Positions 1 to 18,668 of a stretch of DNA of 64,000 nucleotides are shown in pieces; position 1 is the stretch's first letter, and every line of letters begins with the position of its first letter. The notes beneath the pieces were generated by a model. It had not been told where the DNA came from. It made no database searches and saw only the letters and a list, made by a program, of their open reading frames with translations. Source of the DNA: Streptomyces sp. NBC_01498 (GTDB lineage Bacteria; Actinomycetota; Actinomycetes; Streptomycetales; Streptomycetaceae); the NCBI RefSeq assembly GCF_036327775.1, contig NZ_CP109598.1, positions 6,987,501 to 7,051,500 on the forward strand, given 5' to 3'. Position numbers and translations under genes: made by a program.

Positions 1-1244
1 TCCCCCTGCCGCACCCGCAACTCGGTCAGCGCCCGAAGCGGAAACACCGGCCGGTGACGCGGCGGCGGCCCCGGTGCCAGAGTCAGCTCCGGCATCGCGG
101 TGGCCAGGGCCTGGATCGCGACCTCCAGTTCCAGGCGGGCGAATCCGGCGCCGAGGCAGAAATGGATGCCGTGCCCGAACGCGAGATGCGTGGCCGACCC
201 ACTGCCCGGACTGAACCCGGCGGGACACGCGTGGGAGTCGCTGTCCCGGCCGGCCGCCCCGTACAGCAGAAGGAGCCGGCTCCCCGCGGGCAGGTGGACG
301 CCGCCGACCACGACGTCGTGGACCGCGCTCCGGTACATGCCCGCCAGCGGACTGTCGAAGCGCAACCCCTCCTCGACCAGTTCCCGTACGGCGATCGTCC
401 CGTCGACCACCTCGGCCCAGCCGCCGGGTGACCGGAGCTGCTGGAAGAGGATCGTGCCGAGCGCCTCGGCACAGGTCATGTGCCCGGCGAAGATCAGTGT
501 GGGGATCTGGACGGCCGCCTCGTCGGCGGTGAGCGTGCGGCCCCCCTTGCCGTCGTGGAGCAGTTCGCTGATCAGGTCGTCCTTCGGTGAGACCAGCCGC
601 TCCTGCGCGAGCGATCGGGCGAACGCTCCGAACTCCATCAGCCCGCGGGCGTATTCACGCAGCTGGTCGGGATCGGTGTACTCCTGCAACATCATGAGTT
701 CGATCCGCTGCTCGGACCACAGGCGCAAGCGGTCGAGGTACTCGTCCGGGATCCCGAGGCGCCGGCAGATCACCTCCAGGGCGTACGGGACGGCGAACGC
801 CGTGATGAAGTCGAACTCCTCCGCGACCGCGGCCCGCTCGGCGATGTCCGTGGCGATCGCACGCATCGTGGGTTCGAACGCTCTGACCCTGGCCGGCGTG
901 AACCCGATGTTGAGCACTTCCCTGACTTTGGTGTGCTCGGGAGGGTCGAGCGAGCCGACGGCCAGCGCGCCGGCACCGCGCCAGGTGCGGAGCATCCGCT
1001 TCACGTCCTCGGGCAACGCGACCGAGGAGCGGGGGTTGTGGTCGCGCGCCGAGAAGTTCCGGTCGTCCCGCAGCACGGCGACCATGTCCTCGCGCCGGGT
1101 GACGCACCACGCGTCGAGCAAAGGGGCGTAGAACACCGGCTCCGTCTCTCCGATGTCGGCCAGAAACGAATACGGGTCGTCACGATGGGAGCCGTACGGG
1201 TCGAACGGCCTGCCTTCGTACAATTGCCCAGAATCAACTGACAT
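1..1244 (-). CDS. Cytochrome P450 lacking the I-helix acid, candidate nitrene-transfer cyclase (3' end cut by window)
   Basis: Reading leftward from ATG at 1244 (GAGAGG ribosome site just upstream) gives 414 residues before the window edge, so only the last few residues are missing. The haem-binding loop is FGHGIHFCLGAGFAR with Cys363, and the K-helix ExxR is Glu292-Arg295. The I-helix reads AGHMT (253-257): the threonine is kept, but the acid that normally precedes it is Met256. The other two cluster P450s keep Glu-Thr. That acid helps deliver protons for O2 activation, so its loss fits an enzyme that does not use the normal oxygen cycle. BezE of benzastatin biosynthesis makes an iron nitrenoid from an N-acetoxy arylamine, and an N-oxygenase and an N-acetyltransferase sit in the facing operon. 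The P450 call is firm; the nitrene role is inference. Confidence 0.9.
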   Translation of the reverse strand, partial: MSVDSGQLYEGRPFDPYGSHRDDPYSFLADIGETEPVFYAPLLDAWCVTRREDMVAVLRDDRNFSARDHNPRSSVALPEDVKRMLRTWRGAGALAVGSLDPPEHTKVREVLNIGFTPARVRAFEPTMRAIATDIAERAAVAEEFDFITAFAVPYALEVICRRLGIPDEYLDRLRLWSEQRIELMMLQEYTDPDQLREYARGLMEFGAFARSLAQERLVSPKDDLISELLHDGKGGRTLTADEAAVQIPTLIFAGHMTCAEALGTILFQQLRSPGGWAEVVDGTIAVRELVEEGLRFDSPLAGMYRSAVHDVVVGGVHLPAGSRLLLLYGAAGRDSDSHACPAGFSPGSGSATHLAFGHGIHFCLGAGFARLELEVAIQALATAMPELTLAPGPPPRHRPVFPLRALTELRVRQG

Positions 1245-1580
1245 GACGATTCCGCCTCTCAAGCTTTCAGCGAACCATTCCCGGTAATGATCATGACGTT
1301 GTGTGATGCCGGGGAAGGTCCGGTGTCTCCGCGTCGGCAACCGTCCCGACCGCGTCGGAACGCCCGGCTCACCTTGCCGAACAGGGCATCCGCGCCGGTC
1401 GGTGGAGACCGAGTCCTTCTCGGGACGTCCTGCCCGCCGTTGGGCGCCGGCTCAATGGCCGGACTCGAATAGGGTCATGGTGCCACCCGGCAGCCATCAT
1501 TCCGCAGGTGAGTCCGATTCAGGCCCCGAGCGGCCTTCTTTGGGGTTTTTCCTAAAGTCGGAGATGCTTACGCCGCGTCA

Positions 1581-1610
1581 TTGACACGGCAGGACGGGGT
1601 CGTTCAGGAT
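1581..1610 (+). promoter_or_regulatory. Putative sigma-70-type promoter of the operon
   Basis: TTGACA at 1581-1586 is followed after 18 bp by CAGGAT at 1605-1610. The -35 is a perfect consensus match and the -10 resembles actinobacterial TAGGAT boxes. It would leave a leader of about 170 bases before the first gene. Seen in sequence only. Confidence 0.35.
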
Positions 1611-1693
1611 GGCGGTCAGAACGGCCACGCAAATTGCACACCCATGCAGTACGCGCATATCCGGCACGCACATATTCAGCACCGTGATTCTCG

Positions 1694-1721
1694 GTCGTGC
1701 AATGATTTTCAGTCGTGCAAT
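1694..1721 (+). repeat. 10-bp direct repeat upstream of the operon, candidate regulator site
   Basis: GTCGTGCAAT occurs at 1694-1703 and again at 1712-1721, an 18-bp repeat period just downstream of the candidate promoter. Two direct half-sites in this position are typical of an activator or repressor binding site. No cluster-specific regulator gene is visible in the window, so the regulator may lie left of base 1. Confidence 0.4.
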
Positions 1722-1787
1722 TCGCGGACCTCATGAGCGTGGGTTCCGACAAGAATGGGAAAGGCTTGCGACCGGAGGAGAATCTCG

Positions 1788-2825
1788 ATGAGCGCACTCG
1801 ACACCTCGTCGACCGGACGCCGAGCCTTCCTGTCGCGGAGGCCGGAGCCGTCCACCGTATCGTCCGTCGTGCGGCAGCAGGTCTCGGCACTGGAGCCGAC
1901 GCTGGCCCGGATCTGCTCCTACCATCTCGGCTTTCTCGACGAACACGGTGACCCGAGCGGCGCGGAGGGCGGCAAGCTGACGCGCGCCGCCCTCATGACG
2001 GCGGCGGCCGACGGAGTCGGCCTGCGGCCGGAGGACGTCCGGTGCCAGGCGGCGGCACTGGAGCTGCTGCACAACTCGACCCTGATCCACGACGACATCA
2101 TCGACGGGGACGAGCTGCGTCGCGGGCGCCCGGCCGCGTGGAAGGTGTTCGGCACCGGTCCGGCCATCCTGGCCGGGGACGCGTTGCAGGCTCTGGGGCT
2201 GCGGATGGTCGTCGACGACCCCGGCCCCGGACGGGCGGAGATCTCCGGCGTGTTCGCCGAGGCCCTCGGTCTGGTTCTCTCGGGCCAGGCTCGCGAGTTC
2301 ACCGCCCGGTCGGAGCCCGGCACCGGCGTCGCGGAGTACGACCGGATCGTGGTGGAGAAGACGTCCGCCCTGCTGGAGTGCGCACTGGTGACGCCCGCGC
2401 TGCGGGCGGGCAGACCGGAGCACGTGCTGGCCGCCCTGCGCGGCGCGGGCAGGCATCTGGGTCTCGCCTTTCAGATCTTCAACGACGTCGAGGACATCTG
2501 GGGCGACCCCGCGGTGACCGGCAAGCCCGTCCGGAGCGACATCCTGCGGCGCAACCCGAGTTTTCCGGTGATCGCCGCCCTGTCCGCCGACAGCCCGGCC
2601 GGCGAGCGACTGCTCCGGCTGTGGCACGCCGACGGCACCACGGAGGCGCAGCTGCGGGAGATGGCCGACCTGGTCGGGGAAACCGGCGGCCGGTATACGG
2701 CCGAGCAGGTGTCCCGGGGCCATCTGGACTCGGCTCTGGAGCACCTCGGACGGGCCGAGTTGTCCCCGGCCGCCTCCACCGAACTGACCCGCTTGTTCGA
2801 CCGCATCGTCAACCGCACGGCATGA
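1788..2825 (+). CDS. Polyprenyl diphosphate synthase (IPPS family)
   Basis: Condenses isopentenyl diphosphate with an allylic diphosphate to make the prenyl donor, presumably for the UbiA enzyme two genes downstream. The ATG at 1788 is preceded by GGAGGAG (1774-1780), which favours it over the in-frame ATG at 1755; this gives 345 aa. The first aspartate-rich motif is HDDIID (Asp102, Asp103, Asp106), with the GGKLTR diphosphate-binding segment near 61-66. The second motif is NDVEDIWGD near 231, with Asn in the first position. The residues four and five places before the first motif are small (Ser97, Thr98), so the sequence alone does not force a short C10 product. Geranyl diphosphate would fit a benzastatin-like pathway, but chain length is not settled. 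Confidence 0.88.
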   Translation: MSALDTSSTGRRAFLSRRPEPSTVSSVVRQQVSALEPTLARICSYHLGFLDEHGDPSGAEGGKLTRAALMTAAADGVGLRPEDVRCQAAALELLHNSTLIHDDIIDGDELRRGRPAAWKVFGTGPAILAGDALQALGLRMVVDDPGPGRAEISGVFAEALGLVLSGQAREFTARSEPGTGVAEYDRIVVEKTSALLECALVTPALRAGRPEHVLAALRGAGRHLGLAFQIFNDVEDIWGDPAVTGKPVRSDILRRNPSFPVIAALSADSPAGERLLRLWHADGTTEAQLREMADLVGETGGRYTAEQVSRGHLDSALEHLGRAELSPAASTELTRLFDRIVNRTA

Positions 2826-2975
2826 CCCGTACTCCCGACAGGGGCGGCAGCCGGATCGGAGCACATGATCATGGCCGTTCCTCGTTCCTCGACGGACACC
2901 GGGGCGAGGCGCTCCCGTACGTCCTGAGCGTCCTCGACCAGGTGGTCCGAACCTCGATTCCGGCGGAGGCCGTCA

Positions 2976-4148
2976 GTGAGTACCCCAGCTCAATTGCCTT
3001 TCGAGCAGACGAATGTGCTGCAACTCGCGCCAGGGCTGCGCACGATCCAGTCCCGGGGCGCGGTCCATCGGGTTCGTACCGCCGAGGGCGACGAGGCGTG
3101 GCTGGTCACCGGTCACACCTGGGTGAGGCAGTTGCTCGACGACGACCGGCTCGGCCGTTCCCATCCTGATCCGGAGGCCGCGACGAAGGACAGCGGGTCG
3201 GCGCTTCTCGCCGGCCTGCTGGGCGGCTTCGCCACCGATCACGCCCGGCTGCGCGCGCTGCTGGAGCCGCACTTCTCACCCGAGCGGATGCTGGCGCTGC
3301 GGCCCTACGTCGAGAAACTGACCGGCCGGCTCCTGGACGCACTGGCCGGGCGGGAGCCGCCGGTGGACCTGTGCCAGGCGTTGGCGCAGTCGCTGCCGAT
3401 CCAGGTGATGTGCGAGTGGCTGGGCGTTCCCCAGGAGGACAAGGAACGCTTCGGCGGCTGGACCCAGGACGCCGCCAACGTCGGGGACCCGGTCAGGTCC
3501 AAGCAGGGGCTGGGCGAGTTGTTCGGCTACTGCCGTCAACTGATCGCCGACAAACGGCAGAACCCGGGCGATGACGCGATCTCCCGGATCTGCGCGACCG
3601 AGGGGATCACCGACAACGAGGTCATCGGACTGACGGCGTTGTTGCTGTTCGGCGGTTACGAGACCACGGTGGCCCGGATCGGCACCTGTGTGCTGCTGTT
3701 GCTGTCCGACCCCGGGCAGTGGCAGGCGCTGGTGCGCGACCCGGGCCTGATCCCCGGCGCGGTCGAGGAAACCCTGCGCATGTCGATGCCGAACCCGCAC
3801 AACGGCGGCATGCCCCGTTACGCGCTGACGGACTTCGAGATCGACGGGGTCACCATCCGGACCGGCGACTTCGTGCTGCTGAACATCATCGCGGCCAACC
3901 ACGACGAGACGGTCTTCCCGGACCCCGGCCGGGTCGATGTCACGCGCGACACCACGGCCGGCCTCATGTTCGGGCACGGCGCCCACCACTGCGTCGGCGC
4001 GACGTTGGCCCGGATGCAGCTGCGGGTGGTGCTCACCCAGCTCGTCGCACGATTCCCGACCATGCGTCCGGCCGTCGGTGTGGAGGAGCTGGGGCTGCGT
4101 CACCACTCGCTGGTCGGCGGGCTGATCCAACTTCCGGTGACATGGTGA
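2976..4148 (+). CDS. Cytochrome P450
   Basis: Class I bacterial P450 of 390 aa starting at GTG 2976 behind GGAGG (2965-2969). The I-helix FGGYETT has the normal Glu-Thr pair, the K-helix is EETLR, and the haem loop is FGHGAHHCVGATLAR. It should therefore be a conventional oxygen-using hydroxylase or epoxidase that needs ferredoxin and reductase from elsewhere; none is encoded in the cluster. It lies 150 bp after the prenyl synthase and 10 bp before the UbiA gene, so it is probably co-transcribed. Likely substrates are the prenyl chain or aryl ring of the meroterpenoid. The substrate assignment is inference. Confidence 0.92.
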   Translation: MSTPAQLPFEQTNVLQLAPGLRTIQSRGAVHRVRTAEGDEAWLVTGHTWVRQLLDDDRLGRSHPDPEAATKDSGSALLAGLLGGFATDHARLRALLEPHFSPERMLALRPYVEKLTGRLLDALAGREPPVDLCQALAQSLPIQVMCEWLGVPQEDKERFGGWTQDAANVGDPVRSKQGLGELFGYCRQLIADKRQNPGDDAISRICATEGITDNEVIGLTALLLFGGYETTVARIGTCVLLLLSDPGQWQALVRDPGLIPGAVEETLRMSMPNPHNGGMPRYALTDFEIDGVTIRTGDFVLLNIIAANHDETVFPDPGRVDVTRDTTAGLMFGHGAHHCVGATLARMQLRVVLTQLVARFPTMRPAVGVEELGLRHHSLVGGLIQLPVTW

Positions 4149-4158
4149 TGGGATCCTG

Positions 4159-5055
4159 ATGCTGTACAAGATATCCACCGGCGTAGTCACGAAGAGCCCG
4201 GACTCCATCCGCGCGTATCTCCTGTTGATGCGACTGGACAGGCCCACGGGGTACGTGCTCTACCTGCTCCCGGGGCTGTGGGCCGTCGTCCTCGCCTCCG
4301 GGCGACGACCGGACCCGCTGACCCTGGTGGTCGTCGCCGTCGCCGCGGTGCTGGTGCGTGGCGCGGCCTGCTCGGTCAACGACGTGGTCGACAGGGAGAT
4401 CGACGCCCGAGTCGCCCGCACCGTGTCGCGTCCCGTCGCGTCGGGAACGATCAGTGTCCGGAACGCGCTCCTGTTCGCGGTCGCGCAGGGCGTGGTCGCC
4501 CTGCTGGTCCTGGCCGTGGCGAACGTGGAGACGGCCCTGGTCGCCGGGGCCTCGTACCCGTTGATCGTCGCCTACCCCTACATGAAGCGCGTCTTCTTCT
4601 GGCCCTCGGCGTTCCTGGCGCTGGTGATGAGCGTCTACGTGCTGATCGGCTGGACGGCGGCGACCGGGAGCGTCGACTACCCGCTGGCGGTGTACGGCCT
4701 GTACGCCGGCGGGGCGTTCTGGACCCTGATTCACGACGCGATCTACTCCCATCAGGACAAGGAGTACGACCGGAACATCGGCGTCAAGTCGTCCGCCCTG
4801 CTGTTCGGCAAGGCCACCAAGGCGTGGCTGGCGGTGTTCGTCGTGCTGGGCGTCGGCGGCGTGCTGTGGGCCGGCTCCCAGATGTCGATGGGATGGGCGT
4901 TCCATCTGATCGTCGTGCTCGCGGGAGGCTTCCTGTCGTTCCTGGTCGTACGTGTGGACCTGGACGACCCGACCTCGTGCTGGGACACCTTCGTCGCCAA
5001 CCCCTACTTCGGCTGGATCACTCTCGCGGCCGTGGTCGCCGGGCAGTTCACATGA
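4159..5055 (+). CDS. UbiA-family aromatic prenyltransferase
   Basis: Membrane prenyltransferase of 298 aa with about eight or nine hydrophobic helices. Both Asp-rich motifs of the family are present: NDVVDREID near residues 74-82 and DAIYSHQDKEYD near 194-205, which bind the Mg-diphosphate of the prenyl donor. Family members attach a prenyl group to a ring carbon of 4-hydroxybenzoate or similar acids. Here a PABA synthase lies two genes downstream, so p-aminobenzoate is the obvious acceptor, as for BezF in benzastatin biosynthesis. The start at 4159 has only a weak ribosome site (GGGATC). Its stop overlaps the next start by 4 bp, which implies translational coupling. Confidence 0.9.
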   Translation: MLYKISTGVVTKSPDSIRAYLLLMRLDRPTGYVLYLLPGLWAVVLASGRRPDPLTLVVVAVAAVLVRGAACSVNDVVDREIDARVARTVSRPVASGTISVRNALLFAVAQGVVALLVLAVANVETALVAGASYPLIVAYPYMKRVFFWPSAFLALVMSVYVLIGWTAATGSVDYPLAVYGLYAGGAFWTLIHDAIYSHQDKEYDRNIGVKSSALLFGKATKAWLAVFVVLGVGGVLWAGSQMSMGWAFHLIVVLAGGFLSFLVVRVDLDDPTSCWDTFVANPYFGWITLAAVVAGQFT

Positions 5056-5900
5056 GGGACGAGCCGCGGGTGACGGATTCGATGTGGCACGGGAGCGGCG
5101 TCGACCTGGACTCCTACCTGACCCGGGTGGGCTACCAGGGCGACGTGGCTCCGGACCTCGCCACGCTGCGCGGCCTGCACACCGCCCATGTCGACGCGAT
5201 CGCCTTCGACAACCTCGACGCGGTGCTCGGGCGCACGGTGATACCGCTGGACCCGGACAGCGTCCAGGAGAAGCTCGTGCGGCGGGGCCGCGGCGGCTGG
5301 TGCCTGGAACAGGTCGTACTGATGGCGGCCGTGCTGGACCGCATCGGGTTCACGTTCACGGCGTTCGCCGGCCGGACGCGGAACCGCACCGGGACCAGGT
5401 TCGGGCCTGCCCTGCACGTGGCCCTGTGCGTGGAGCTCGACGGCGAACGCTGGATCCACGACGTGAGTTTCGGTGCCTACGGGCCGCACGAGCCGATCCG
5501 GCTCGCGGAGAACGCGCGGCTGGACGGCGACTGGCCGTTCGATCTCGTGCGGGAGCCGACCGGTGAGCTCGTGCTGCGGTTCCTGCGGCCGGAGGGACCG
5601 GCGGAGCTCTACGGCTTCACCACGGACGTGCGCTATCCGTCGGACTTCGAGCTCCTCAACCACTTCTGCCTCACGCATCCGCGCTCGCCCTTCAACCACC
5701 GGTTGGTCCTCCAGCGCACCCGGCCCGACGTGAGGCACCTCCTCGTCGGCGGCACGCTCATGGAACTGCGTCCCGGGCAGCCGGAGACCGTCCGGGAACT
5801 CGACAGGGACGAGTTGCTCTCCGCTCCCGAGGAGATATTCGGGATCACCCTGGAGCCGGGCGACGTCCAGGCGCTCGGGAAAATCTTGGACGGTCCATGA
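5052..5900 (+). CDS. Arylamine N-acetyltransferase (NAT)
   Basis: Transfers acetyl from acetyl-CoA to an aryl amine or aryl hydroxylamine. The 282-aa protein has the family triad in order: Cys84 in RGGWCLEQ, His122 in GPALHVAL and Asp137 in WIHDVSFG. It starts at ATG 5052, overlapping the UbiA stop, and ends by overlapping the PabAB start, so three genes are coupled. In benzastatin biosynthesis a NAT O-acetylates the N-hydroxy arylamine so that acetate can leave when the P450 forms a nitrene. The AurF-type enzyme downstream would supply that hydroxylamine. N-acetylation as a protecting or self-resistance step is the alternative. Confidence 0.92.
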   Translation: MRDEPRVTDSMWHGSGVDLDSYLTRVGYQGDVAPDLATLRGLHTAHVDAIAFDNLDAVLGRTVIPLDPDSVQEKLVRRGRGGWCLEQVVLMAAVLDRIGFTFTAFAGRTRNRTGTRFGPALHVALCVELDGERWIHDVSFGAYGPHEPIRLAENARLDGDWPFDLVREPTGELVLRFLRPEGPAELYGFTTDVRYPSDFELLNHFCLTHPRSPFNHRLVLQRTRPDVRHLLVGGTLMELRPGQPETVRELDRDELLSAPEEIFGITLEPGDVQALGKILDGP

Positions 5901-8017
5901 TGCGTACCTTGCTGCTGGACAACTACGACTCGTACACCTTCAACCTGTACCAGCTGATCGCCGAGATCAACGGCCGGGAGCCCGTCGTCATGGTCAACGA
6001 CGATCCGGCGCTGGCCGGCCTGCGGCTGGAGGACTTCGACAACATCGTGATCTCACCCGGCCCCGGCAGGCCGCAGAACCCCCGCGACGTCGGCCTCCTC
6101 GGTGACCTGCTGCGCCGCACCACCCTGCCCGTGCTGGGCGTCTGCTTCGGCCACCAGCTGATCGCCCACCTGGCCGGGGCGTCGGTGGTCGCCGCGCCCG
6201 AACCGAAACACGGACACCTGGCCAAGGTCTCCCACGACGGAGATCCGCTGTTCGCCGGAATCGCGCGTGAGTTCGTCGCGGTGCGCTACCACTCGCTCTG
6301 CGTACGGGAGCCCCTGCCCGAGGAACTCGTCGCCACCGCGTGGGCGGACGACGGTGTGCTCATGGCGCTGCGTCACCGCGATCTGCCGCAGTGGGGCGTG
6401 CAGTTCCACCCCGAGTCGATCGCCTCCCAGTACGGGCGGGACATCCTGCGGAACTTCGCCGAACTGACCCGCCGTACGCGGCACGGACCACGGCCGTCCG
6501 TCACCGACCCCGTCGGCGTCGCCGTATCGTCCGACCACGTGCCCGACGCGGGCGAGGGACTGGGAATCGTGAGCACGGTCGTGCCGACCGCCGCCGATTC
6601 CGAGGCCATCTTTCTCGAACTCTTCGACAACACCCCCCACTGCTTCTGGCTGGACAGCAGCCGCGTCGAGGAAGACCTGTCCCGGTTCTCCTTCCTCGGC
6701 GACACGTCGGGTCCGCTCAGCGAGGTCCTGACCTACCGCACCGGCAGCGGGTCGGTGGAAGTGCGCGACGCGAACGGCGTCCACACCGTCACCGGCAGCG
6801 TGTTCGACGTCCTCGACCGGCGGCTGCGCGACCGGCGCATCCCCACCCCGGATCTGCCCTTCGACCTGACCGGCGGCTACGTCGGCTACTTCGGCTACGA
6901 ACTCAAGGCCGAATGCGGGGCCACGGCCCGCCACACCGCCGAAACGCCGGACGCCGTCTGGATGTTCGCCGATCGCGTCGTCGCGGTCGACCACCAGGAG
7001 GGCGTGACCTACCTGGTGGCCGTCCACGACGAGAACACCCGGCGCGACGCGCACGAGTGGGTGGAACGGACGTCCGCGCTCCTGCGGGGCCTGAACCCGG
7101 CCGCCGCCGCGCCGCCGCGCGAACCCGCCGCCGGCCGGCCCCCGGACGCCGAGGAGTACCTCGGCCGAGGCCGGAGCCAGTACCTGGCGGACATCACCGA
7201 GTGCCGCCGGCAGCTGAACCGCGGCGAGAGCTACGAGATCTGCCTGACCGACACGCTGCACCTGCCGTTCGACGACGACGACACGTCCTTCTACCTGAGG
7301 CTGCGCCGGGCGAACCCGGCACCGTACGCCGCGCTCCTGCGCCTCGGTGACGTCACGGTCTTCAGCTCCTCGCCGGAGCGGTTCCTGCGCATCGAGAGAG
7401 ACCGTACGGTCACCAGCAAGCCGATCAAGGGCACGGCCCCTCGCGACGCCGACCCGGTGCGCGACGCCGAACTGGCCGCCACCCTCGCGTCGAGCGCGAA
7501 GACCCAGGCCGAGAACCTGATGATCGTAGACCTGCTGCGCAACGACCTCGGCCGGGTGTGCGAGGTGGGCAGCATCGAGGTCGACCCGTACCTGGCCGTC
7601 GAGAGCTACGAGACCGTGCACCAACTGGTCTCCACCGTTCGCGGACGCCTCAAGGACGGGGTCAGCGCGATGGACTGCGCCCGGCAGTGCTTCCCCGGCG
7701 GGTCGATGACCGGGGCACCGAAGCTGCGCACCATGGAGATCATCGACCGCCTGGAGACGGAGGCCCGGGGCGTCTACTCCGGCGCCCTCGGCTACTTCGG
7801 CCTCTCCGGCGGCACGGACCTGAACATCGTGATCCGCACCGCCGTCCGCGTCGGCGACCGGCTGACCGTCGGAGCCGGCGGGGCGATCGTCCTCGACTCC
7901 GACCCGCACGAGGAGTACGAGGAGATGCTCCTCAAGGCGGCGGCGTCCCTCCGGGCCCGGCGTGCGCCGGCGGTGCCGGACATGGGCGGCTCCACGATGA
8001 AGGAGGTTTCCCGATGA
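5897..8017 (+). CDS. pabAB: Aminodeoxychorismate synthase, fused PabA-PabB
   Basis: Makes 4-amino-4-deoxychorismate from chorismate and glutamine, the first committed step to p-aminobenzoate. The 706-aa fusion has an N-terminal class I glutamine amidotransferase domain (about 1-195; nucleophile Cys83 in GVCFGHQL and a later HPES motif) and a C-terminal chorismate-binding domain (about 230-700). The diagnostic PIKGT motif holds Lys511, which marks PabB; anthranilate synthase has PIAGT. Fused forms are common in PABA-dependent antibiotic clusters. No PabC lyase gene is in the window, so the housekeeping lyase or a gene left of the window must finish PABA. Coupled by 4-bp overlaps on both sides. 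Confidence 0.95.
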   Translation: MMRTLLLDNYDSYTFNLYQLIAEINGREPVVMVNDDPALAGLRLEDFDNIVISPGPGRPQNPRDVGLLGDLLRRTTLPVLGVCFGHQLIAHLAGASVVAAPEPKHGHLAKVSHDGDPLFAGIAREFVAVRYHSLCVREPLPEELVATAWADDGVLMALRHRDLPQWGVQFHPESIASQYGRDILRNFAELTRRTRHGPRPSVTDPVGVAVSSDHVPDAGEGLGIVSTVVPTAADSEAIFLELFDNTPHCFWLDSSRVEEDLSRFSFLGDTSGPLSEVLTYRTGSGSVEVRDANGVHTVTGSVFDVLDRRLRDRRIPTPDLPFDLTGGYVGYFGYELKAECGATARHTAETPDAVWMFADRVVAVDHQEGVTYLVAVHDENTRRDAHEWVERTSALLRGLNPAAAAPPREPAAGRPPDAEEYLGRGRSQYLADITECRRQLNRGESYEICLTDTLHLPFDDDDTSFYLRLRRANPAPYAALLRLGDVTVFSSSPERFLRIERDRTVTSKPIKGTAPRDADPVRDAELAATLASSAKTQAENLMIVDLLRNDLGRVCEVGSIEVDPYLAVESYETVHQLVSTVRGRLKDGVSAMDCARQCFPGGSMTGAPKLRTMEIIDRLETEARGVYSGALGYFGLSGGTDLNIVIRTAVRVGDRLTVGAGGAIVLDSDPHEEYEEMLLKAAASLRARRAPAVPDMGGSTMKEVSR

Positions 8018-8943
8018 CCCCGGCCCGTGAAGTGCCCGCGTACGAGCGTGACTTGCTGGAGCAGCTGACGCTCCGCTGGGGGAAGCGCGTGGCCGTCAAG
8101 AAGGACGACCTCGACCTCGACGGTCACTTCGACGCGGCCCTGCCGGACTTCCCCGAACACCTCGTCCCCGTGCTCGGCCTGCCGGGCGCCGACCGGCTCG
8201 ACCCGGACGCGCGCGAGCGCATCCTGTCCGCGGCGTGGATCGCCTACAACGCCAAGACCGCGGCCATCGAGGACGAGATCATCCTGCCGGCCTGCCGGTT
8301 GATGCTCCAGGAACGGATTCCCGTCCGCCGCGACGACGTCGCCGTCGACGCGCTGCACCAGACGATCATCGATGAGCACTATCACATCCTGATGTGCCAC
8401 AACGCCGTCGGCGTCACCCGCAGGCGGCGCGACCTCGCGGACCTGCGCTTCGCGCCCGGCGTCTGGTCCGTCGTCCAGGGACACGACGCGGTCCGCGCCG
8501 GGCTGTCCGGCTTCGACCGCGACATCGTCGACATCGCGTTCTCCCTGGCCGCCGAGACCACGATCAGCGGGTTCCTCTCCGCACTCGCCACCGCCCAGGA
8601 GATCCAGCCGATGAACCGGATCACCACCGATCTGCACCGGCGGGACGAGAGCGGACACGCGGTGGTCTTCCGCGAGTTGTGCGGCTCGCTCTACCGGAAC
8701 CTGGACAGCGCACAGCGGCGGATGTTCCGCGAGGCACTCGTCACCGGGCTGACCGCGTTCCGCTCCGCGGACCTGGACCCCTGGGTGACCGTGGCGGCCC
8801 GGGGCGGCTTCGAGATCGACACCGGCCAGCTGAGCGAGTGGGCCGCGTCCCGCCCCGTGCCCGCGCGGGACACCGGACCGCTGCAACTGCTGCTCGACGA
8901 CCTGGGCATCAGCCACGACCTCGTCGAAATGGTCCGGCGCTGA
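8014..8943 (+). CDS. AurF-type di-iron arylamine N-oxygenase
   Basis: A 309-aa protein of the p-aminobenzoate N-oxygenase family. All seven metal ligands of AurF can be placed at exactly the AurF spacings: Glu86, Glu121 and His124 (EHYH), Glu181, His208, Glu212 and His215 (HRRDESGH). AurF oxidises p-aminobenzoate through the hydroxylamine to the nitro acid. Next to a NAT gene the hydroxylamine is the more useful product, to be O-acetylated and cyclised. An AAGGAGG site sits at 8000-8006 ahead of ATG 8014, inside the 3' end of pabAB. Whether it acts on free PABA or on the prenylated acid cannot be read from the sequence. Confidence 0.9.
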   Translation: MTPAREVPAYERDLLEQLTLRWGKRVAVKKDDLDLDGHFDAALPDFPEHLVPVLGLPGADRLDPDARERILSAAWIAYNAKTAAIEDEIILPACRLMLQERIPVRRDDVAVDALHQTIIDEHYHILMCHNAVGVTRRRRDLADLRFAPGVWSVVQGHDAVRAGLSGFDRDIVDIAFSLAAETTISGFLSALATAQEIQPMNRITTDLHRRDESGHAVVFRELCGSLYRNLDSAQRRMFREALVTGLTAFRSADLDPWVTVAARGGFEIDTGQLSEWAASRPVPARDTGPLQLLLDDLGISHDLVEMVRR

Positions 8944-8983
8944 CGGCCCCGCGCCGCCCAGCCACGAGAAGCGGACGGAGAGC

Positions 8984-10405: not shown

Positions 10406-10433
10406 AACCGTCAACATCTTCGAGGATGCGCCC

Positions 10434-11672: not shown

Positions 11673-11732
11673 CGGCGCCTGAACGACATTGATCGACCGC
11701 CGGATTCCAGGCCGCTGTGCGGCGAGAAAGGT

Positions 11733-13406
11733 GTGGCTGACCACATGCTCATTTGCGGGATCAAGGCATCGCACGACGGCGGGGTCGCCGTCATCGAAGA
11801 CGGCCGTCTTCTCTTCAGCTACGAGATCGAGAAGCTGAACAACGGCGAACGCTACAGCTCTCTCGGAGACCTGGAGCGCGTGACGGAGATCCTCGCCATG
11901 GAGGGGCTGTCGCCCGCCGACGTCGATCAGTTCGTGGTCGACGGCTGGTACACGAAAGACGCCGCGGGCGACACCGCCGTCAAGGTGAACGCCGGTGGCC
12001 TGCCGGTACAGCTCCGGGTCGCACCGTACCTGGAGAGCCCCGGCGACGACGGGCCGCTGCAACGTCACACCTTCAGCGGCCATGGTTTCGACAGCTACTC
12101 CGGCTACACCCACGTCGCCAACCACCTCATCGGCACGTACTGTTCGAGCCCGTTCGCCGCCAGGGGCGAGGACGCGTTCGTCGTGGTCTGGGACGGCCTC
12201 ATCACGCCGCGCCTCTACCACGTGCGGGCCGCCACCCGTGAAGTGACGTTCGTCGAGGCCCTGTTGCCCATCCTCGGAGGCAGCTTCGCGGCGTTCTGCT
12301 CGCGGTTCGAGCCGTACCTGCTCAAGACCGACGACGTCACGTCGGACACCTACATCCGCCAGCACCTCTCCGTCGCGGGGAAGGCCATGGCGTACGCGGC
12401 CAAAGGCCGGGTCGAGACCGGTGCGTTCGCCGTCCTCGACGACCTCATGGCCGAGTTCCGCGACATCTCCTTCGACAAGGTGGGCGTGCTGGGCGACAAG
12501 GTCGCCGCGAACAGGGACGAGCTGATGCCGGGTCTGTCCAACGCGGACCTCATCGCCACCTACCAGGCCTACATCGGCCACCACCTGCTCGCGCGGCTCA
12601 CCACGGCGGTGCGCGGCCACTCCCCGGACGGCGGCCACAACCTGGTGCTCGGCGGCGGCTGCGCCCTCAACATCAAGTGGAACACCGGGATCCGGGCCGC
12701 CGGGGTCTTTCAGGAGGTCTTCGTCCCGCCCTTCCCCAACGACGCGGGGGCGGCGATCGGAACCGCGGCCTGCGAGATGTTCCGGCGCGGCCGGACGGCG
12801 CTGGAGTGGGACGTCTACAGCGGACCCCGGATCACCACCGGCACCCTTCCGGACGGGTGGCGGGCCGAGCCCTGCGACGAACGGCGGCTGGCCGCCCTGC
12901 TGCACACCGAGGGCGAACCGGTGGTCGTCCTCTCCGGCCGGGCGGAGCTGGGCCCGCGCGCGCTGGGCAACCGGAGCATCCTGGCGCCCGCGACCGACGC
13001 GCGGATGAAGGACCGGCTCAACGACATCAAGAACCGGGCCGCGTACCGGCCCGTCGCGCCCATCTGCCTGGAGGACCGCGCGCCGGAGGTCTTCGCCCCC
13101 GGCACTCCCGACCCCTACATGATCTTCGAGCACCGTATGCGCGAGGGCTGGGCCGAGCGCGTCCCGGCGGTCGTCCACCTGGACGGCACCGCGCGGCTCC
13201 AGACCATCGCGTCGACCCAGGACACCGACACCGCGCGTATCCTCACCGCCTACGCGGAGATCAGCGGCGTACCCGTGCTGTGCAACACGAGCGCGAACCT
13301 CGAAGGACGGGGTTTCTTCCCCGACGTCGAGTCGGCGGCCCGCTGGGGCGGGACCCGTTACCTGTGGTCCGAGGGGACGCTCTACACGAACCCCCGCGTG
13401 GAGTGA
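11733..13406 (+). CDS. O-carbamoyltransferase, NodU/CmcH (TobZ-like) family
   Basis: Transfers a carbamoyl group from carbamoyl phosphate, through carbamoyl-AMP, to a hydroxyl group. About 557 aa from GTG 11733; ATG 11745 is equally possible because the GAGAAAGG site at 11724-11731 is badly spaced for both. The N-terminal Kae1-like domain has the metal-binding His-x3-His pair (His127, His131 in HVANH), followed by GGGCALN near 308 and PPFPNDAGAA near 331. The C-terminal YrdC-like portion carries GRAELGPRALGNRSI near 406. Family relatives carbamoylate novobiocin, tobramycin and geldanamycin. It predicts a carbamate ester on the product, which is not a known benzastatin feature. Confidence 0.9.
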   Translation: MADHMLICGIKASHDGGVAVIEDGRLLFSYEIEKLNNGERYSSLGDLERVTEILAMEGLSPADVDQFVVDGWYTKDAAGDTAVKVNAGGLPVQLRVAPYLESPGDDGPLQRHTFSGHGFDSYSGYTHVANHLIGTYCSSPFAARGEDAFVVVWDGLITPRLYHVRAATREVTFVEALLPILGGSFAAFCSRFEPYLLKTDDVTSDTYIRQHLSVAGKAMAYAAKGRVETGAFAVLDDLMAEFRDISFDKVGVLGDKVAANRDELMPGLSNADLIATYQAYIGHHLLARLTTAVRGHSPDGGHNLVLGGGCALNIKWNTGIRAAGVFQEVFVPPFPNDAGAAIGTAACEMFRRGRTALEWDVYSGPRITTGTLPDGWRAEPCDERRLAALLHTEGEPVVVLSGRAELGPRALGNRSILAPATDARMKDRLNDIKNRAAYRPVAPICLEDRAPEVFAPGTPDPYMIFEHRMREGWAERVPAVVHLDGTARLQTIASTQDTDTARILTAYAEISGVPVLCNTSANLEGRGFFPDVESAARWGGTRYLWSEGTLYTNPRVE

Positions 13407-13602
13407 CGTTCACCCGCCGGTCCGTGCGGCGGCCGGCGGGGGAGCGGCGCCCGGATCGCCGGGTGCCGCAACTCCCGTCGACCACAAGGCATTTGTAGAA
13501 TGTCGTGCCCTGGAGAGACGGCCCGCCGACGCCCGGCGAGGGGCCGTCGCAGGCCGCCCTTCTTCCGGACACGTCCGCCACCGATACGACGCGGAGATCA
13601 CC
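13407..13602. promoter_or_regulatory. Gap between carbamoyltransferase and carboxylic acid reductase
   Basis: This 196-bp gap is the largest inside the rightward gene set and carries a hairpin at 13444-13469 followed by a TAGAAT hexamer at 13496-13501 in a locally AT-rich patch. The combination suggests that the operon ends here and the reductase has its own promoter. No recognisable -35 accompanies the hexamer. Confidence 0.35.
13444..13469 (+). terminator. Hairpin terminator after the carbamoyltransferase gene
   Basis: GCGGCGCCCGG (13444-13454) pairs with CCGGGTGCCGC (13459-13469) through an ATCG loop, with one G-T wobble. There is no U run, which is usual for GC-rich actinobacteria. Confidence 0.5.
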
Positions 13603-16600
13603 GTGCGACTCGCGCAAGTCATGGCACATGCCTTTGAGCGCCACCAGGACCGGCCCGCCGTCGGTGAGCGGGCGAGGGAGTTCGTGCGGGACGCCCGGAC
13701 CGGGCGCGTGTCGGCGCGTCTGCTGCCGCGCTACGAGACCACCAGCTACCGGCAGTTGTGGAGCCGTACCCGCGCGGTGGCGAGCGAATGGCACCACCAC
13801 CCGCGGCGCCCTCTCGTCGCGGGCGACCGGGTGGCCCTGCTCGGCTTCACGAGCCGGGACTACGCGACGCTGGACCTGGCGTGCGCCTGTCTGGGCGCCG
13901 TCAACGTGCCGTTGCAGATCAGTGCGCCGATCGACAATCTGACGTCCATCCTGGCGGAGACCGAGCCGGTCCTCGTCGCCGCGAGCATCGAGCGACTGGA
14001 CGCCGCGGCCGAGCTGTCCCTGCGCACCCCTTCGGTCCGGCGGCTGGTCGTGTTCGACTACCATCCGCGCGCCGAGGACCAGGCGGAGCGGTTCGCCGCC
14101 GCCCGCGAGAGCCTGGCCGAGGCCGGACGGGACGTGGAGGTCGTCGCCCTGTCGGCGGTCCTCGACCGCGGCGCCGGCCTGCCCGAGGCACCGCTGTACA
14201 TCCCGGGCGACGACGAGGATCCCCTCGCGATGCTCGTCTACACCTCGGGGAGTACCGGAACACCGAAGGGCGCCATATACACCGAGCGGCTCGCCAGGGT
14301 GATGTGGGAGGACCGGTCGAAGGGGGCCGCCACGGACGCGGTCGCCATCAACTACATGCCGCTGAGCCATGTCGCCGGCCATTTCCTGCTGATGAACGCA
14401 CTGGCCCGCGGAGCCTCCAGCTGCTTCACCGCCGGCAGCGACCTGTCGACGTTCCTCGAGGACCTCGCTCTCGTACGGCCCACCGAGCTGTTCCTCGTGC
14501 CCCGGGTGTGCGAGATGCTCCACCAGCTCTACCGGGGCGAGCTGGACCGGCGGACCTCCGCGGGCGGCGACCCGGAGCGGGCCGCGACCGAGGTGCTCAG
14601 CCGGCTCCGCGAGGACGTCCTCGGAGGGCGCGTCGGCGTGGCCGGCACCGGCTCCGCGCCGCTGTCCGCCGCGCTGACCGAGTTCACCGAGGCCCTTCTC
14701 GGCATTCCGCTGCACAACGGGTACGGCTCCACGGAGGTCATGGGCATCGCCGCCGACGGCATGCTGCAGAGCCCGCCGGTGATCGACTACAAGCTGGCCG
14801 ACGCGCCCGAGCTGGGCTACTTCCGCACCGACGCCCCCCACCCGCGCGGCGAGCTCCTGGTGAAGGCCGACGGCATCCCCGGCTACTACAAGCGGCCCGA
14901 GCTGACGGCGGAACTCTTCGACGGCGACGGCTACTACCGGACCGGCGACATCGTCGCGGAGCTCGGTCCACGCCGTATCGCCGTACTGGACCGCCGCACG
15001 AGTGTATTGAAGCTGTCCCAGGGCGAGTTCGTGTCCGTCGCCAAGCTGGAATCGATCTTCGCCGCCTGCCCGTCGGTGCGGCAGATCTTCCTCTACGGCA
15101 ACAGCGAGCGCTCCCATCTGCTCGCCGTGGTCGTGCCCACCCCGGACGCCCTGCGGCGGTACGGGGACGACCGGGACGGACTCCAGGACCTGCTGAGCGA
15201 ATCGCTCCGGCGGATCGCCGAGGACACCGGCCTTCAGGCGTACGAGATCCCCCGGGGTCTGCTGGTCGAGACCGAGCCGTTCAGCCAGGCCGGCGGTCTG
15301 CTCTCGGACCAGGGAAAGCTGCTGTGGCCCAAGCTCGTGGAGCGTTACGGCGAGCGACTGGAGCAGCTGTACGCCGAGATGTCGGCCCGCGAGACACGGG
15401 AGTTGCTCGAACTGCGCCGCACGGGCGGCGACCGGCCGGTGCTGGAGACGGTCCAGCTGGCCGCGCGGGCGCTGCTGGCGGGCTCGACGACGGAGGTGAG
15501 TCCCTCCGCGCGTTTCCGGGACCTCGGCGGCGACTCGCTGTCCGCGGTGTCACTGTCGAACCTGTTGCACGACACCTTCGGTGTCCGGGTGCCGGTCGAC
15601 GTCGTCATCAGCCCCGCGCACGACCTGCGGCAGCTGGCCGCCTACGTCGAGTCCAAGCGCACGGCCACCGTGACGCGGCCCACCTTCGCGTCGGTGCACG
15701 GCGAGGACGCCACCGAGACGCACGCCAAGGACCTCGTCCTGGGCCGGTTCATCGACGCGGCGACGCTCGACGGCACCCGCCACCTGCCGCGCCCCGCCGG
15801 GGAACCGCGCCGCGTTCTGCTGACCGGCGCGAGCGGGTACCTGGGGCGCTTCCTCACCCTCGAATGGCTCCGCCGGCTGGCCCCGGCCGACGGCAGGCTG
15901 ATCGTCGTGGTCCGTGGCGAGGACCCGGAAGCCGCCGGACGGCGACTGGCCGACGCCTTCGGCAGCGACGACGCCGAACTGACACGCGCCTACGAGGAGT
16001 TGGCCGCGAAGCACCTGGAAGTGCTGGCCGGAGACATCGCCGAGCCGAGACTGGGCCTGGACGAGGAGACGTGGGAACGGCTGACCGGTGAGGTGGACCT
16101 GATCGTCCACGCGGGCGCCCTGGTGAACCATGTGCTGCCCTACCGCCACCTGTTCGACGCCAACGTCCTCGGAACCGCGGAGCTCGTCCGGCTGTCCCTG
16201 ACGAAGCGGCTCAAGCCGTTCACGTACCTCTCCAGCGTGGCCGTGTCCACAGCCCGGAGGGGCCGGCCCCTCGACGAGGACACCGACGTGCGCGCCGCGC
16301 TGCCGGACCGGCCTGTCGACGACGGGTACGCCGGCGGGTACACGACGAGCAAGTGGGCGGGGGAAGTGCTGCTGCGGGAGGCGCACGACCTGTGCGAGCT
16401 GCCCGTGACGGTGTTCCGCTCCACCATGATCCTCGCGCACCGCCGGTACACCGGGCAGCTGAACGCGCACGACATGTTCAGCCGGCTGCTGTTCACCCTC
16501 CTCGCGACGGGCGTGGCTCCGGACTCCTTCTACCGGACCGGCGGCGACGAGGGGTCACGGGCGCACTACGACGGCCTGCCCGTCGACTTCACCGCGGCAT

Positions 16601-16992
16601 CGGTCGTCACGCTGGGACGGAGCACCTCCGGTCACCGGACCTTCAGCCTGGTGAACCCGCACGACGACGGCATCTCGCTCGACACGTTCGTGGACTGGCT
16701 CATCGAGGACGGCCACGGTGTCGAACGGATCGGGGACTACGGCGACTGGCTCGTCCGCGTCGAAGCCGCCCTGCGCAACCTGCCGGGGGCGCAACGCCGC
16801 TACTCCGTCCTTCCCCTGCTGGAAGGCTTCCAGGAACCGGGACCGGCCGTGCCCGGCTCGGACGTCCCGTCGGATCGCTTCCAGGAGGCCGTCCGGGAGG
16901 ACGGCATCGGACCGGACCGGGAGGTGCCGCACGTGTCCCGAACCCTCATCCGCAAGTACGTGACGGACCTGCGGCGCCTGATGACCTCCTGA
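13603..16992 (+). CDS. Carboxylic acid reductase (A-T-R, CAR family)
   Basis: ATP- and NADPH-dependent reduction of a carboxylic acid to an aldehyde. The 1129-aa protein shows an adenylation domain (YTSGSTGTPKG near 214, NGYGSTE near 373, YYRTGD near 445), a carrier domain with GGDSLS (phosphopantetheine Ser645), and a short-chain-type reductase domain with TGASGYLG near 740 and catalytic Tyr913-x3-Lys917. Length and order match Nocardia/Mycobacterium CAR. It needs a phosphopantetheinyl transferase, and none is in the window. In this cluster the natural substrate is an aryl acid such as prenylated PABA or its cyclised form, giving an aryl aldehyde. GTG 13603 has GGAG at 13593; ATG 13621 is the alternative start. 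Confidence 0.92.
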   Translation: MRLAQVMAHAFERHQDRPAVGERAREFVRDARTGRVSARLLPRYETTSYRQLWSRTRAVASEWHHHPRRPLVAGDRVALLGFTSRDYATLDLACACLGAVNVPLQISAPIDNLTSILAETEPVLVAASIERLDAAAELSLRTPSVRRLVVFDYHPRAEDQAERFAAARESLAEAGRDVEVVALSAVLDRGAGLPEAPLYIPGDDEDPLAMLVYTSGSTGTPKGAIYTERLARVMWEDRSKGAATDAVAINYMPLSHVAGHFLLMNALARGASSCFTAGSDLSTFLEDLALVRPTELFLVPRVCEMLHQLYRGELDRRTSAGGDPERAATEVLSRLREDVLGGRVGVAGTGSAPLSAALTEFTEALLGIPLHNGYGSTEVMGIAADGMLQSPPVIDYKLADAPELGYFRTDAPHPRGELLVKADGIPGYYKRPELTAELFDGDGYYRTGDIVAELGPRRIAVLDRRTSVLKLSQGEFVSVAKLESIFAACPSVRQIFLYGNSERSHLLAVVVPTPDALRRYGDDRDGLQDLLSESLRRIAEDTGLQAYEIPRGLLVETEPFSQAGGLLSDQGKLLWPKLVERYGERLEQLYAEMSARETRELLELRRTGGDRPVLETVQLAARALLAGSTTEVSPSARFRDLGGDSLSAVSLSNLLHDTFGVRVPVDVVISPAHDLRQLAAYVESKRTATVTRPTFASVHGEDATETHAKDLVLGRFIDAATLDGTRHLPRPAGEPRRVLLTGASGYLGRFLTLEWLRRLAPADGRLIVVVRGEDPEAAGRRLADAFGSDDAELTRAYEELAAKHLEVLAGDIAEPRLGLDEETWERLTGEVDLIVHAGALVNHVLPYRHLFDANVLGTAELVRLSLTKRLKPFTYLSSVAVSTARRGRPLDEDTDVRAALPDRPVDDGYAGGYTTSKWAGEVLLREAHDLCELPVTVFRSTMILAHRRYTGQLNAHDMFSRLLFTLLATGVAPDSFYRTGGDEGSRAHYDGLPVDFTAASVVTLGRSTSGHRTFSLVNPHDDGISLDTFVDWLIEDGHGVERIGDYGDWLVRVEAALRNLPGAQRRYSVLPLLEGFQEPGPAVPGSDVPSDRFQEAVREDGIGPDREVPHVSRTLIRKYVTDLRRLMTS

Positions 16993-17010
16993 CCGGGCGA
17001 CCACGCCGCT

Positions 17011-17047
17011 CTCCGCCCCGCCGTACTCCTTCGTCGGCGGGGCGGAG
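17011..17047. terminator. Bidirectional terminator between convergent genes
   Basis: A perfect 13-bp inverted repeat, CTCCGCCCCGCCG (17011-17023) and CGGCGGGGCGGAG (17035-17047), with an 11-nt loop. It lies between the stop of the reductase gene and the stop of the convergent GMC oxidoreductase gene. Confidence 0.75.
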
Positions 17048-17121
17048 GCCGGCGGCACCGGCGCGCTTCGTCCGGCCGGGTCCGCGCGACACGGGCCCCT
17101 CTGCTGCCGGGCGATCCCGGC

Positions 17122-18642
17122 CTAGGTGTTCGTCGGCGGAGCGGAGACCAGGTGCGCCGCGCGTTCGGCGATGCCCAGCACGGCCGCGTTGGTGTTGGCC
17201 GAGACGACCGAGGGCATCACGGAGGCGTCGGCGATCCTCAGGCCCTCGACACCGTGGACGCGCAGGGCCGTGTCGACCACCGCCTCCTCGTCCGTGCCGA
17301 TGCGGCAGGTGCCGACCGGGTGGAAGTAGGTGCCGACGGTACGGCGGAGGAACGCACCGCACTCGTCGTCGGTGACCACGTCCCGGCCGGGGAGGATCTC
17401 GTCGGCCCGCCAGGCCGACAGGGCGTCGGCCCGCGCGATGCGCCGTGCCGTGCGCAAGGCGGCGACCATACGGGCCACGTCGTCGCTCTCGGTCAGATAG
17501 GCGGGGTCGATGAGCGGGTACGAGGTGGGGTCCGCGCTGCGCAGGCGCACGCTGCCCCGGCTGGTGGGGGTCCCGAGGCCGAAGAGGATCGAGAAGCCCT
17601 CCTGGGCACCCGCCCATCGTGGCTCCAGCGCCACGGGAGTGAAGCTCATCAGGATGTCGGGGTCCCTGCCCGGGTCGGTGCGTGCGAGGAGCATCGCCTG
17701 CCGCGAGGGGCCGAGCACCGGGGACTTCTTCACCCCGTAGGAGACCCAGGCCAGCGGATGGTCGTGCAGGTTGGCGCCCACACCGGGGAGATCGGCACGC
17801 ACCGGGATCCCCAGCTGTCGCAGCTGGTCGGCGGGGCCGATGCCGGAGAGCAGGAGAATCTGCGGAGAGCCGACGGCGCCCGCGCTCAGCACGACTTCCC
17901 GCTCGGCGTGGACGGTGCGTGACTTTCCGTTCCGAACGTATTCGGCACCTCTGCACCGGCCGTTGTCGATGAGGAGACGGTGCACCTGCGCGTCGGTGAC
18001 GACGGTGAGATTGGGCCGTGAGAGCACCGGGAACAGATACGCGTCCGCGGCGCTCTGCCTGCGGCCCCCGGCCACATTCCTTTCGCACCAGAACACCCCT
18101 TCGGCCTCCGGGGCGTTCCCGTCCTCGCAGCGCGGGAAGCCCGCGTCGACCGCCGCGTCGTGCAGGTCCCGCGCGAGAGGAGTGGCGGCGGGCGGCTCCT
18201 CGATGATCATGGGACCCGCTTGTCCCCGGAAACGCGGATCCCTGCCCCTGGCCTGCTCGCTGCGCATGAGGAACGGCAGCATCTCCTCGTAGTTCCAGCC
18301 GGCGGCGCCCTGCTTCTCCCAGGCGTCGTAGCTGGAGGCGCGGCCGCGCAGGTGCGTCATGCCGTTGATACTGCTGGAACCGCCCAACACCCGCCCTCTG
18401 GGCCAGGTATGGACGGCGTTGTCGGTACCCGGCTGAGGTGTCGTCGTGTAGTTCCAGTCCACCGACGATCCCCAGAGACCGACCGCCGCCTCGGGGTTCC
18501 CGTCCGACATGATCGCGGGGCCACCTCTGGCTCCCGCCTCCAGAAGGGCCACCCGGACCTCGGAGTCCTCCGACAGCCGGGCGGCCAGCACTGCGCCGGC
18601 CGTTCCGCCGCCGACGATGACGTAGTCGAAGATCTGCTCCAC
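17122..18642 (-). CDS. GMC-family FAD-dependent alcohol oxidoreductase
   Basis: Choline dehydrogenase-like flavoenzyme of 506 aa that oxidises alcohols to aldehydes. The N-terminal FAD site is DYVIVGGGTAGA, and the C-terminal active-site segment is FHPVGTCRIG, followed by NTNAAVLGIAERAA. The start chosen is GTG 18642 behind AAAAGGA, which puts the Rossmann fold at residue 5. The in-frame ATGs at 18657 and 18714 would add an unneeded tail. It converges on the reductase gene across a strong terminator and is therefore at the border of the biosynthetic cluster. It could re-oxidise a benzylic or allylic alcohol of the product, or be unrelated; I cannot decide from sequence. Confidence 0.88.
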   Translation of the reverse strand: MEQIFDYVIVGGGTAGAVLAARLSEDSEVRVALLEAGARGGPAIMSDGNPEAAVGLWGSSVDWNYTTTPQPGTDNAVHTWPRGRVLGGSSSINGMTHLRGRASSYDAWEKQGAAGWNYEEMLPFLMRSEQARGRDPRFRGQAGPMIIEEPPAATPLARDLHDAAVDAGFPRCEDGNAPEAEGVFWCERNVAGGRRQSAADAYLFPVLSRPNLTVVTDAQVHRLLIDNGRCRGAEYVRNGKSRTVHAEREVVLSAGAVGSPQILLLSGIGPADQLRQLGIPVRADLPGVGANLHDHPLAWVSYGVKKSPVLGPSRQAMLLARTDPGRDPDILMSFTPVALEPRWAGAQEGFSILFGLGTPTSRGSVRLRSADPTSYPLIDPAYLTESDDVARMVAALRTARRIARADALSAWRADEILPGRDVVTDDECGAFLRRTVGTYFHPVGTCRIGTDEEAVVDTALRVHGVEGLRIADASVMPSVVSANTNAAVLGIAERAAHLVSAPPTNT

Positions 18643-18668
18643 AGCCGTCCTTTTCATCCGGAGTTTCG

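Follow-up and report, generated by a model that had tools for sequence, protein, structure and literature searches.

A 64,000-nucleotide stretch of the 7.27-Mb, single-contig genome of Streptomyces sp. NBC_01498 (contig NZ_CP109598.1; G000:C1:6987501-7051500; hereafter the window) carries at its left end a predicted benzastatin/virantmycin-type biosynthetic gene cluster, together with a three-gene extension encoding a cytochrome P450, a carbamoyltransferase, and a carboxylic acid reductase (CAR). The cluster begins left of the window: the core gene P450 1 reaches window position -63, and two methyltransferase genes lie beyond it. These are given in coordinates of a stretch designated L007, from which 20000 is subtracted to obtain the window position. 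The features are as follows.

L007:17770-18678, plus strand: BezA orthologue, 302 amino acids (aa), matching PDB 7fbh
L007:18860-19690, plus strand: second methyltransferase, 276 aa, with 3bus and MitM as solved relatives
<1-1244 (C-terminal end at window -63; L008:7437-8744), minus strand: P450 1, core (Pfam p450)
1755-2825, plus strand: polyprenyl diphosphate synthase, presumed geranyl diphosphate (GPP) synthase (PF00348, 167.9 bits)
2976-4148, plus strand: P450 2, core (PF00067), by gene order the favoured BezE-type nitrene transferase
4159-5055, plus strand: UbiA prenyltransferase (PF01040, 190.4 bits)
5052-5900, plus strand: NAT-type O-acetyltransferase, BezG-like (PF00797, 177 bits)
5897-8017, plus strand: PabA-PabB fusion, PabAB (TIGR00553 pabB, 353 bits; cut-off 328)
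7997-8001, plus strand: ATGAA junction ascribed to a pabC deletion (~0.83 kb)
8014-8943, plus strand: AurF-type N-oxygenase (PF11583, 118.1 bits)
8984-10405, plus strand: class II 3-deoxy-D-arabino-heptulosonate 7-phosphate (DAHP) synthase (PF01474, 577.8 bits)
10434-11672, plus strand: P450 3, extension, TamI-like (Pfam p450; 77% identical to TamI)
11733-13406, plus strand: O-carbamoyltransferase, extension, NodU/TobZ type (PF02543, PF16861)
13603-16992, plus strand: CAR with adenylation-thiolation-reductase (A-T-R) architecture, extension (NF041592; CARs in PDB)
17122-18714: GMC oxidoreductase, outside the conserved unit

Scans against Pfam and NCBIfam, with each family's own cut-off, recovered every enzyme class named in the initial annotation of this DNA; the p-aminobenzoic acid (PABA) synthase, UbiA, prenyl diphosphate synthase, AurF-type enzyme, NAT, and P450s all score above the Pfam cut-offs. 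PabAB carries the PIKGT motif, the RGGWC motif of the NAT is kept in all aligned rows, and the AurF-type protein matches AurF in PDB with E-values of the 1e-31 class. The genes from the polyprenyl synthase to CAR (1755-16992) share one strand, overlap slightly or are no more than ~200 bases apart, and may therefore form a single operon.

Reading of the sequence left of position 1, a check proposed with the initial annotation, revealed the BezA orthologue and the second methyltransferase. The former aligns with residues 5-301 of the 303 in BezA (PDB 7fbh; 613 bits, E 6.9e-184), with Glu and Trp residues aligned to BezA Glu170 and Trp210. BezA is the GPP C6-methyltransferase of benzastatin biosynthesis; in an excerpt of PMC12471008, Glu170 takes part in deprotonation and Trp210 narrows the pocket to GPP. 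The orthologue points to a geranyl rather than a farnesyl chain, and it fixes the tie to benzastatin far better than the enzyme list alone could. Together with the gene order and the syntenic relatives described below, this confirms at the level of sequence the benzastatin/virantmycin logic first proposed for the locus, in which UbiA, the AurF-type N-oxygenase, and the NAT occur in one cluster. The second methyltransferase has 3bus (which we take to be RebM; 237.5 bits) and MitM (219.4 bits) as best solved relatives, with BezA at only 56 bits; its likeness to MitM was not used as a link to aziridine chemistry, given the higher score of 3bus.

To place the cluster among its relatives, a single scan of genome contigs for the AurF-type protein yielded 27 named loci with at most 10 kb on each side, which were sorted by tblastn with the cluster proteins and by rough gene calling. 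Core and full extension occur in six: Streptomyces niveus (L039), Lentzea indica (L046), L. waywayandensis (L048), L. jiangxiensis (L049), Umezawaea endophytica (L050), and L. cavernae (L051). In a seventh, S. adelaidensis (L045), the contig breaks off after P450 3 and the carbamoyltransferase. Eight loci (L041, L042, L043, L044, L047, L052, L053, and L054) contain the core with no extension in the stretch fetched; in several of these stretches one or more core genes were not seen, among them the polyprenyl synthase (L044), UbiA (L053), the genes at the left (L054), and DAHP synthase (L052 and L043, the latter on a contig ending ~5 kb past the AurF gene). One locus bears a deletion scar (S. 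ipomoeae, L038), one a degenerate cluster (Nocardia seriolae, L057), and ten (L040, L055, L056, and L058-L064) have PabAB and AurF without a close bez-type set of UbiA, NAT, and P450 2, with L062 containing a 45% identical UbiA and an open reading frame (ORF) that clusters with NATs.

Surveys of 392 Streptomyces genomes gave a similarly sparse distribution. With the best five first-look candidates scored per genome, an AurF-type match at E <= 1e-30 was found in 25, i.e., NBC_01498, three at 93-94% identity, one at 69%, and the rest at <= 36%. With the best three scored, the carbamoyltransferase reached E <= 1e-200 in five: NBC_01498, the genome G343 (93%), and three others at 69, 65, and 64%. 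Two genomes with a 93% identical AurF protein (G356 and G332) had no close carbamoyltransferase anywhere among those three candidates.

The A-T-R reductase and the carbamoyltransferase, proposed from the outset as additions to the benzastatin logic, are real, and both travel with one P450. CAR scores 1632 bits against NF041592 (cut-off 1300), and all four of the catalytic motifs checked are present. The carbamoyltransferase is assigned by both its Pfam domains and has TobZ, GdmN, and the novobiocin carbamoyltransferase as PDB relatives; an identity as NodU itself (NF041651) was rejected at 600.7 of the 1000 bits required. The extension is complete in NBC_01498, G343, and the six named loci, in two gene orders. 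In Streptomyces, DAHP synthase is followed by P450 3, carbamoyltransferase, and CAR; the five Lentzea/Umezawaea loci have P450 3 and the carbamoyltransferase inverted as a pair, then CAR, and behind it a GMC gene. All ten loci that have both P450 3 and the carbamoyltransferase hold them side by side, among them L057, where P450 3 is a fragment and no CAR was found within 3.4 kb past the carbamoyltransferase. In S. ipomoeae, the first ~20 codons of P450 3 are fused to the C-terminal part of CAR, so the trio was presumably once present there. In the core-protein tree, extended and core-only loci interleave, with several nodes weak; the simplest reading would be one acquisition, one rearrangement, and repeated loss of the extension, and exchange between lineages is compatible with the trees. 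No plasmid match to CAR emerged from a plasmid search. Comparison of NBC_01498 with four relatives detected no internal stops in the extension genes, for which the ratio of nonsynonymous to synonymous substitution (NG86) was 0.30-0.53 (P450 3), 0.20-0.27 (carbamoyltransferase), and 0.42-0.48 (CAR), as compared to 0.15-0.48 for six core genes.

One of the early assignments had to be revised, and another is in doubt. Two ordinary P450s had been counted as additions; since P450 2 occurs in all eight core-only loci and P450 1 in seven of them, only P450 3 is extra, the P450 1 orthologues being 77-87% identical across core-only and extended loci. The divergent P450 had been taken for the BezE equivalent. 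On our assumption that the bez letters begin with BezA and that BezF is UbiA and BezJ the N-oxygenase, the letter order fits that of the genes in the relatives, provided that pabC is counted as I, which would make P450 2, beside UbiA, BezE and P450 1 BezC. BezG is the NAT in an excerpt of PMC11213898. Gene order thus favours P450 2 as the most likely BezE equivalent. As a separate observation, Tyr replaces the usual His two residues before the Cys of the P450 2 heme loop in 6 of 18 distinct loci.

To delimit the cluster, the window region was compared by megablast with G343 (L034, L078) and S. niveus (L039). DNA alignment extends from ~L007:17690, a left edge visible in G343 only, to window positions 17004 and 17015, just beyond CAR. 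The aligned pieces are 88.7-94.1% identical, apart from one of 245 bases at 85.7%; beyond these edges, nothing aligned in the 1.6-3.6 kb of flanking sequence compared. These edges delimit a conserved unit of ~19.3 kb from BezA to CAR, which in its unlike flanks would fit, as expected, a cluster moving as a block. Outside it lie LuxR-type ORF, MFS, and PucR genes on the left and GMC, MarR, and MMPL genes on the right. The GMC oxidoreductase was rejected as a cluster member for Streptomyces because the DNA alignment stops before its gene, and no GMC gene was found after CAR in G343 (3.6 kb seen) or S. niveus (2.0 kb seen). The GMC behind CAR in the five Lentzea/Umezawaea loci is a different one (44-47% identity), and that of L049 is about equally close to another GMC of the NBC_01498 genome (376.7 vs 368.9 bits).

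We therefore propose, with a probability of about 0.7, that this is a benzastatin/virantmycin-type cluster with an old three-gene extension directing the synthesis of a formyl (or hydroxymethyl), carbamoylated benzastatin. In this scheme, core genes are assigned by orthology, core chemistry follows the published benzastatin route, and the extension steps are inferred. DAHP synthase and PabAB would provide aminodeoxychorismate, with a PabC encoded elsewhere in the genome finishing PABA; the BezA orthologue would methylate GPP at C6, UbiA would couple the chain to PABA, the AurF-type enzyme would form the hydroxylamine, and the NAT would acetylate it. The BezE-type P450, most likely P450 2, would then proceed via a nitrenoid and an aziridine to an indoline or tetrahydroquinoline, in line with the BezE chemistry (acetate loss, iron nitrenoid, aziridine, and either ring) given in excerpts of PMC11843346 and PMC9866866. 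For the extension, CAR would reduce the aromatic carboxylate to an aldehyde, which cellular enzymes may carry on to the alcohol; P450 3 would hydroxylate, most likely in the terpenoid part, and the carbamoyltransferase would act on a hydroxyl, most likely the P450 3 product, as the constant pairing of these two genes suggests. P450 1 and the second methyltransferase would decorate the terpenoid tail; virantmycins bear a methoxymethyl group. The structure of the product, its aldehyde, and the position of its carbamate are predictions of this scheme. Taking virantmycin as C19H26ClNO3, its hydroxylated and carbamoylated aldehyde would be C20H27ClN2O4 ([M+H]+ ~395.17).

Several points weigh against this proposal. 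The product is predicted from the genes, and the BezE-type P450 is placed by gene order; within the conserved unit, there is no conserved transporter or regulator and no aldehyde reductase; and the next relatives of the carbamoyltransferase (64-69%; L075-L077, six ORFs scanned) have neighbours that provide no clue to its substrate. Moreover, all 17 aligned rows of P450 1 (16 distinct loci) share the I-helix sequence AGHMTC, in which the acid that normally precedes Thr is missing. P450 1 may catalyse an unusual reaction, and such a helix might suit an enzyme with no need to activate O2. That P450 1 rather than P450 2 is the nitrene-transferring cyclase is nonetheless unlikely, as the bez letters, in the order assumed above, place BezE directly before the UbiA gene BezF, and P450 2 is found wherever a bez-type UbiA is, whereas P450 1 was not seen in L054 (where the flank may be too short). 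Finally, the cluster is without pabC. Of the 19 relatives with PabAB at least 77% identical (duplicates counted once), 17 have a class IV aminotransferase gene of the PabC type between pabAB and the AurF gene, the other two being L040 and L052. In S. niveus and G343, pabC has ATGAA at both its ends, while the window flanks join at one ATGAA; on this sequence evidence, pabC has been removed from NBC_01498 by a short-repeat deletion, after which the PabAB C-terminus is altered and overlaps the AurF start. Such a clean ATGAA-to-ATGAA event, altering PabAB as well, could mean that NBC_01498 no longer makes a product from this cluster. We consider this very doubtful: PABA is probably still made, because four class IV aminotransferase genes lie elsewhere in the genome, one of them ~130 bases past a pabB homologue, and the other cluster genes are open and constrained. 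The same gene is also absent from that place in the two relatives named above.

The substrate of CAR bears on the remaining alternatives. Among 295 Streptomyces genomes, with the best two candidates scored in each, CAR was found at E <= 1e-200 in 27, NBC_01498 included. We examined the neighbourhoods of the seven best CARs outside benzastatin-type clusters for class II DAHP synthase, PhzE-like synthase, isochorismatase, and class IV aminotransferase genes. The five nearest (63-76% identity; G201, G076, G028, G184, and G012) all lie within ~10 kb of at least one of these (in G012, DAHP synthase only); neither of the next two (60-61%) has any of the genes sought. The eight cluster CARs form one clade (split support 1.0) inside the CARs near phenazine-type genes, which are sister lineages. 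This branching suggests, without proving, that the ancestral enzyme acted on an aminoaromatic acid derived from chorismate, and hence that CAR here acts on the PABA carboxyl; the neighbours of the other CARs indicate a 2-amino-2-deoxyisochorismate/phenazine-type acid, as opposed to prenylated PABA in NBC_01498. CAR could act instead on a terpenoid carboxylate arising from P450 oxidation of the chain, as the family accepts many acids and three P450s are available, but with all five nearest CARs adjoining aminoaromatic genes, we find this improbable. More credible, albeit still doubtful, is that CAR and the carbamoyltransferase work serially on one position, from acid through aldehyde and (via a cellular reductase) benzylic alcohol to a p-aminobenzyl carbamate, with P450 3 acting elsewhere. 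The trio is kept or lost together in intact loci and the ancestry of CAR indicates an aryl acid; however, the constant pair is P450 3 with the carbamoyltransferase, in the five Lentzea/Umezawaea loci CAR stands apart from that pair in the opposite orientation, and no alcohol dehydrogenase lies in the conserved unit. Should that serial route coexist with a nitrenoid-derived aziridine (or chloro-tetrahydroquinoline), the product would be a two-ended electrophile, a combination that we regard as a long shot. The formyl (or hydroxymethyl) benzastatin carbamoylated at a P450 3-derived hydroxyl remains the reading that we prefer.

Comparison with known systems places the novelty in the extension. 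The bez cluster of Streptomyces sp. RI18 (MIBiG BGC0001529) has in common the BezA orthologue, UbiA, NAT, N-oxygenase, PABA synthase, and P450 logic; NBC_01498 differs in having the three-gene extension and in being without pabC. To our knowledge, the RI18 cluster ends at bezJ and holds no extension genes. The expected scaffold is that of virantmycin/benzastatin, geranylated PABA cyclised to an indoline or tetrahydroquinoline (excerpt of PMC9866866), from which the NBC_01498 product would differ in lacking the free acid and bearing a carbamate. P450 3 is 77% identical to TamI (PDB 6xa2; 314 of 407 residues), presumably the multi-step oxidase of tirandamycin biosynthesis, with an unrelated scaffold; our literature search returned nothing relevant on the TamI pocket residues. 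With mitomycin and FR900482, there would be at most a resemblance in functional groups (aziridine, carbamate, aldehyde), whereas the route in NBC_01498 is from PABA and a geranyl chain; no DegT-type domain, the fold that we take 3-amino-5-hydroxybenzoic acid synthase to have, was detected by Pfam among the cluster ORFs scanned. We found no published account of the extension in the open-licence PMC literature, where, among the matches listed, only a synthesis review (PMC6271761) pairs benzastatin or virantmycin with carbamoyl or CAR. The core is thus known, and the extension provisionally undescribed.

Other observations concern the surroundings and the relatives. A 103-aa LuxR-type helix-turn-helix ORF (L007:16964-17275, plus strand; ~2.7-3.0 kb left of the window) precedes the BezA gene and is a possible pathway regulator; a 79% identical counterpart lies upstream of BezA in Salinispora (L053:4206-4520) and in none of the other loci examined. 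In a separate terpenoid locus ~15-19 kb left of the window (L007:1249-5430, minus strand), a P450 gene, an ORF carrying the C-terminal domain of a squalene-hopene cyclase, and a polyprenyl synthase gene follow one another. In Salinispora (L053, 12090-16129; domains scanned) and Actinoplanes (L054, 13421-17823; counterparts matched by clustering), GHMP kinase, diphosphomevalonate decarboxylase-like, and FMN-dependent dehydrogenase genes lie behind the core and perhaps give these clusters their own prenyl supply. A second cassette type (L037, L055, and L058-L061) comprises PabAB, PabC-type, AurF-type (63-75%), and acyl-CoA dehydrogenase ORFs without bez prenylation genes. In Streptomyces samsunensis (L040), PabAB, AurF, and DAHP synthase (88-93% identical) stand beside genes of unrelated kinds, for an amino acid permease and a TRAM-domain methyltransferase, with no pabC, UbiA, NAT, or P450 2 found in the fetched stretch. 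Streptomyces loci with CAR near phenazine-type aminoaromatic genes are L092, L093, L094, L098, and L099.

The benzastatin pathway provided the first known P450 nitrene transferase, according to an excerpt of a review (PMC10646976), and the carboxyl of virantmycin is said to matter for antiviral activity (excerpt of PMC9866866). A conserved branch of this family, expected to reduce that acid and to append a carbamate, predicts a new class of product in S. niveus NRRL 2466, Lentzea spp., and Umezawaea endophytica, and suggests that its CAR accepts an unusual aryl acid. Loci with and without the extension, the S. ipomoeae scar included, constitute a natural comparison for its role; S. antioxidans and S. 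caeruleatus are among the core-only strains. Were the two-ended electrophile to prove true, it could expel its carbamate to form an aza-quinone methide, and would represent a benzastatin-derived counterpart of the mitomycin/FR900482 cross-linkers, reached via a wholly different route.

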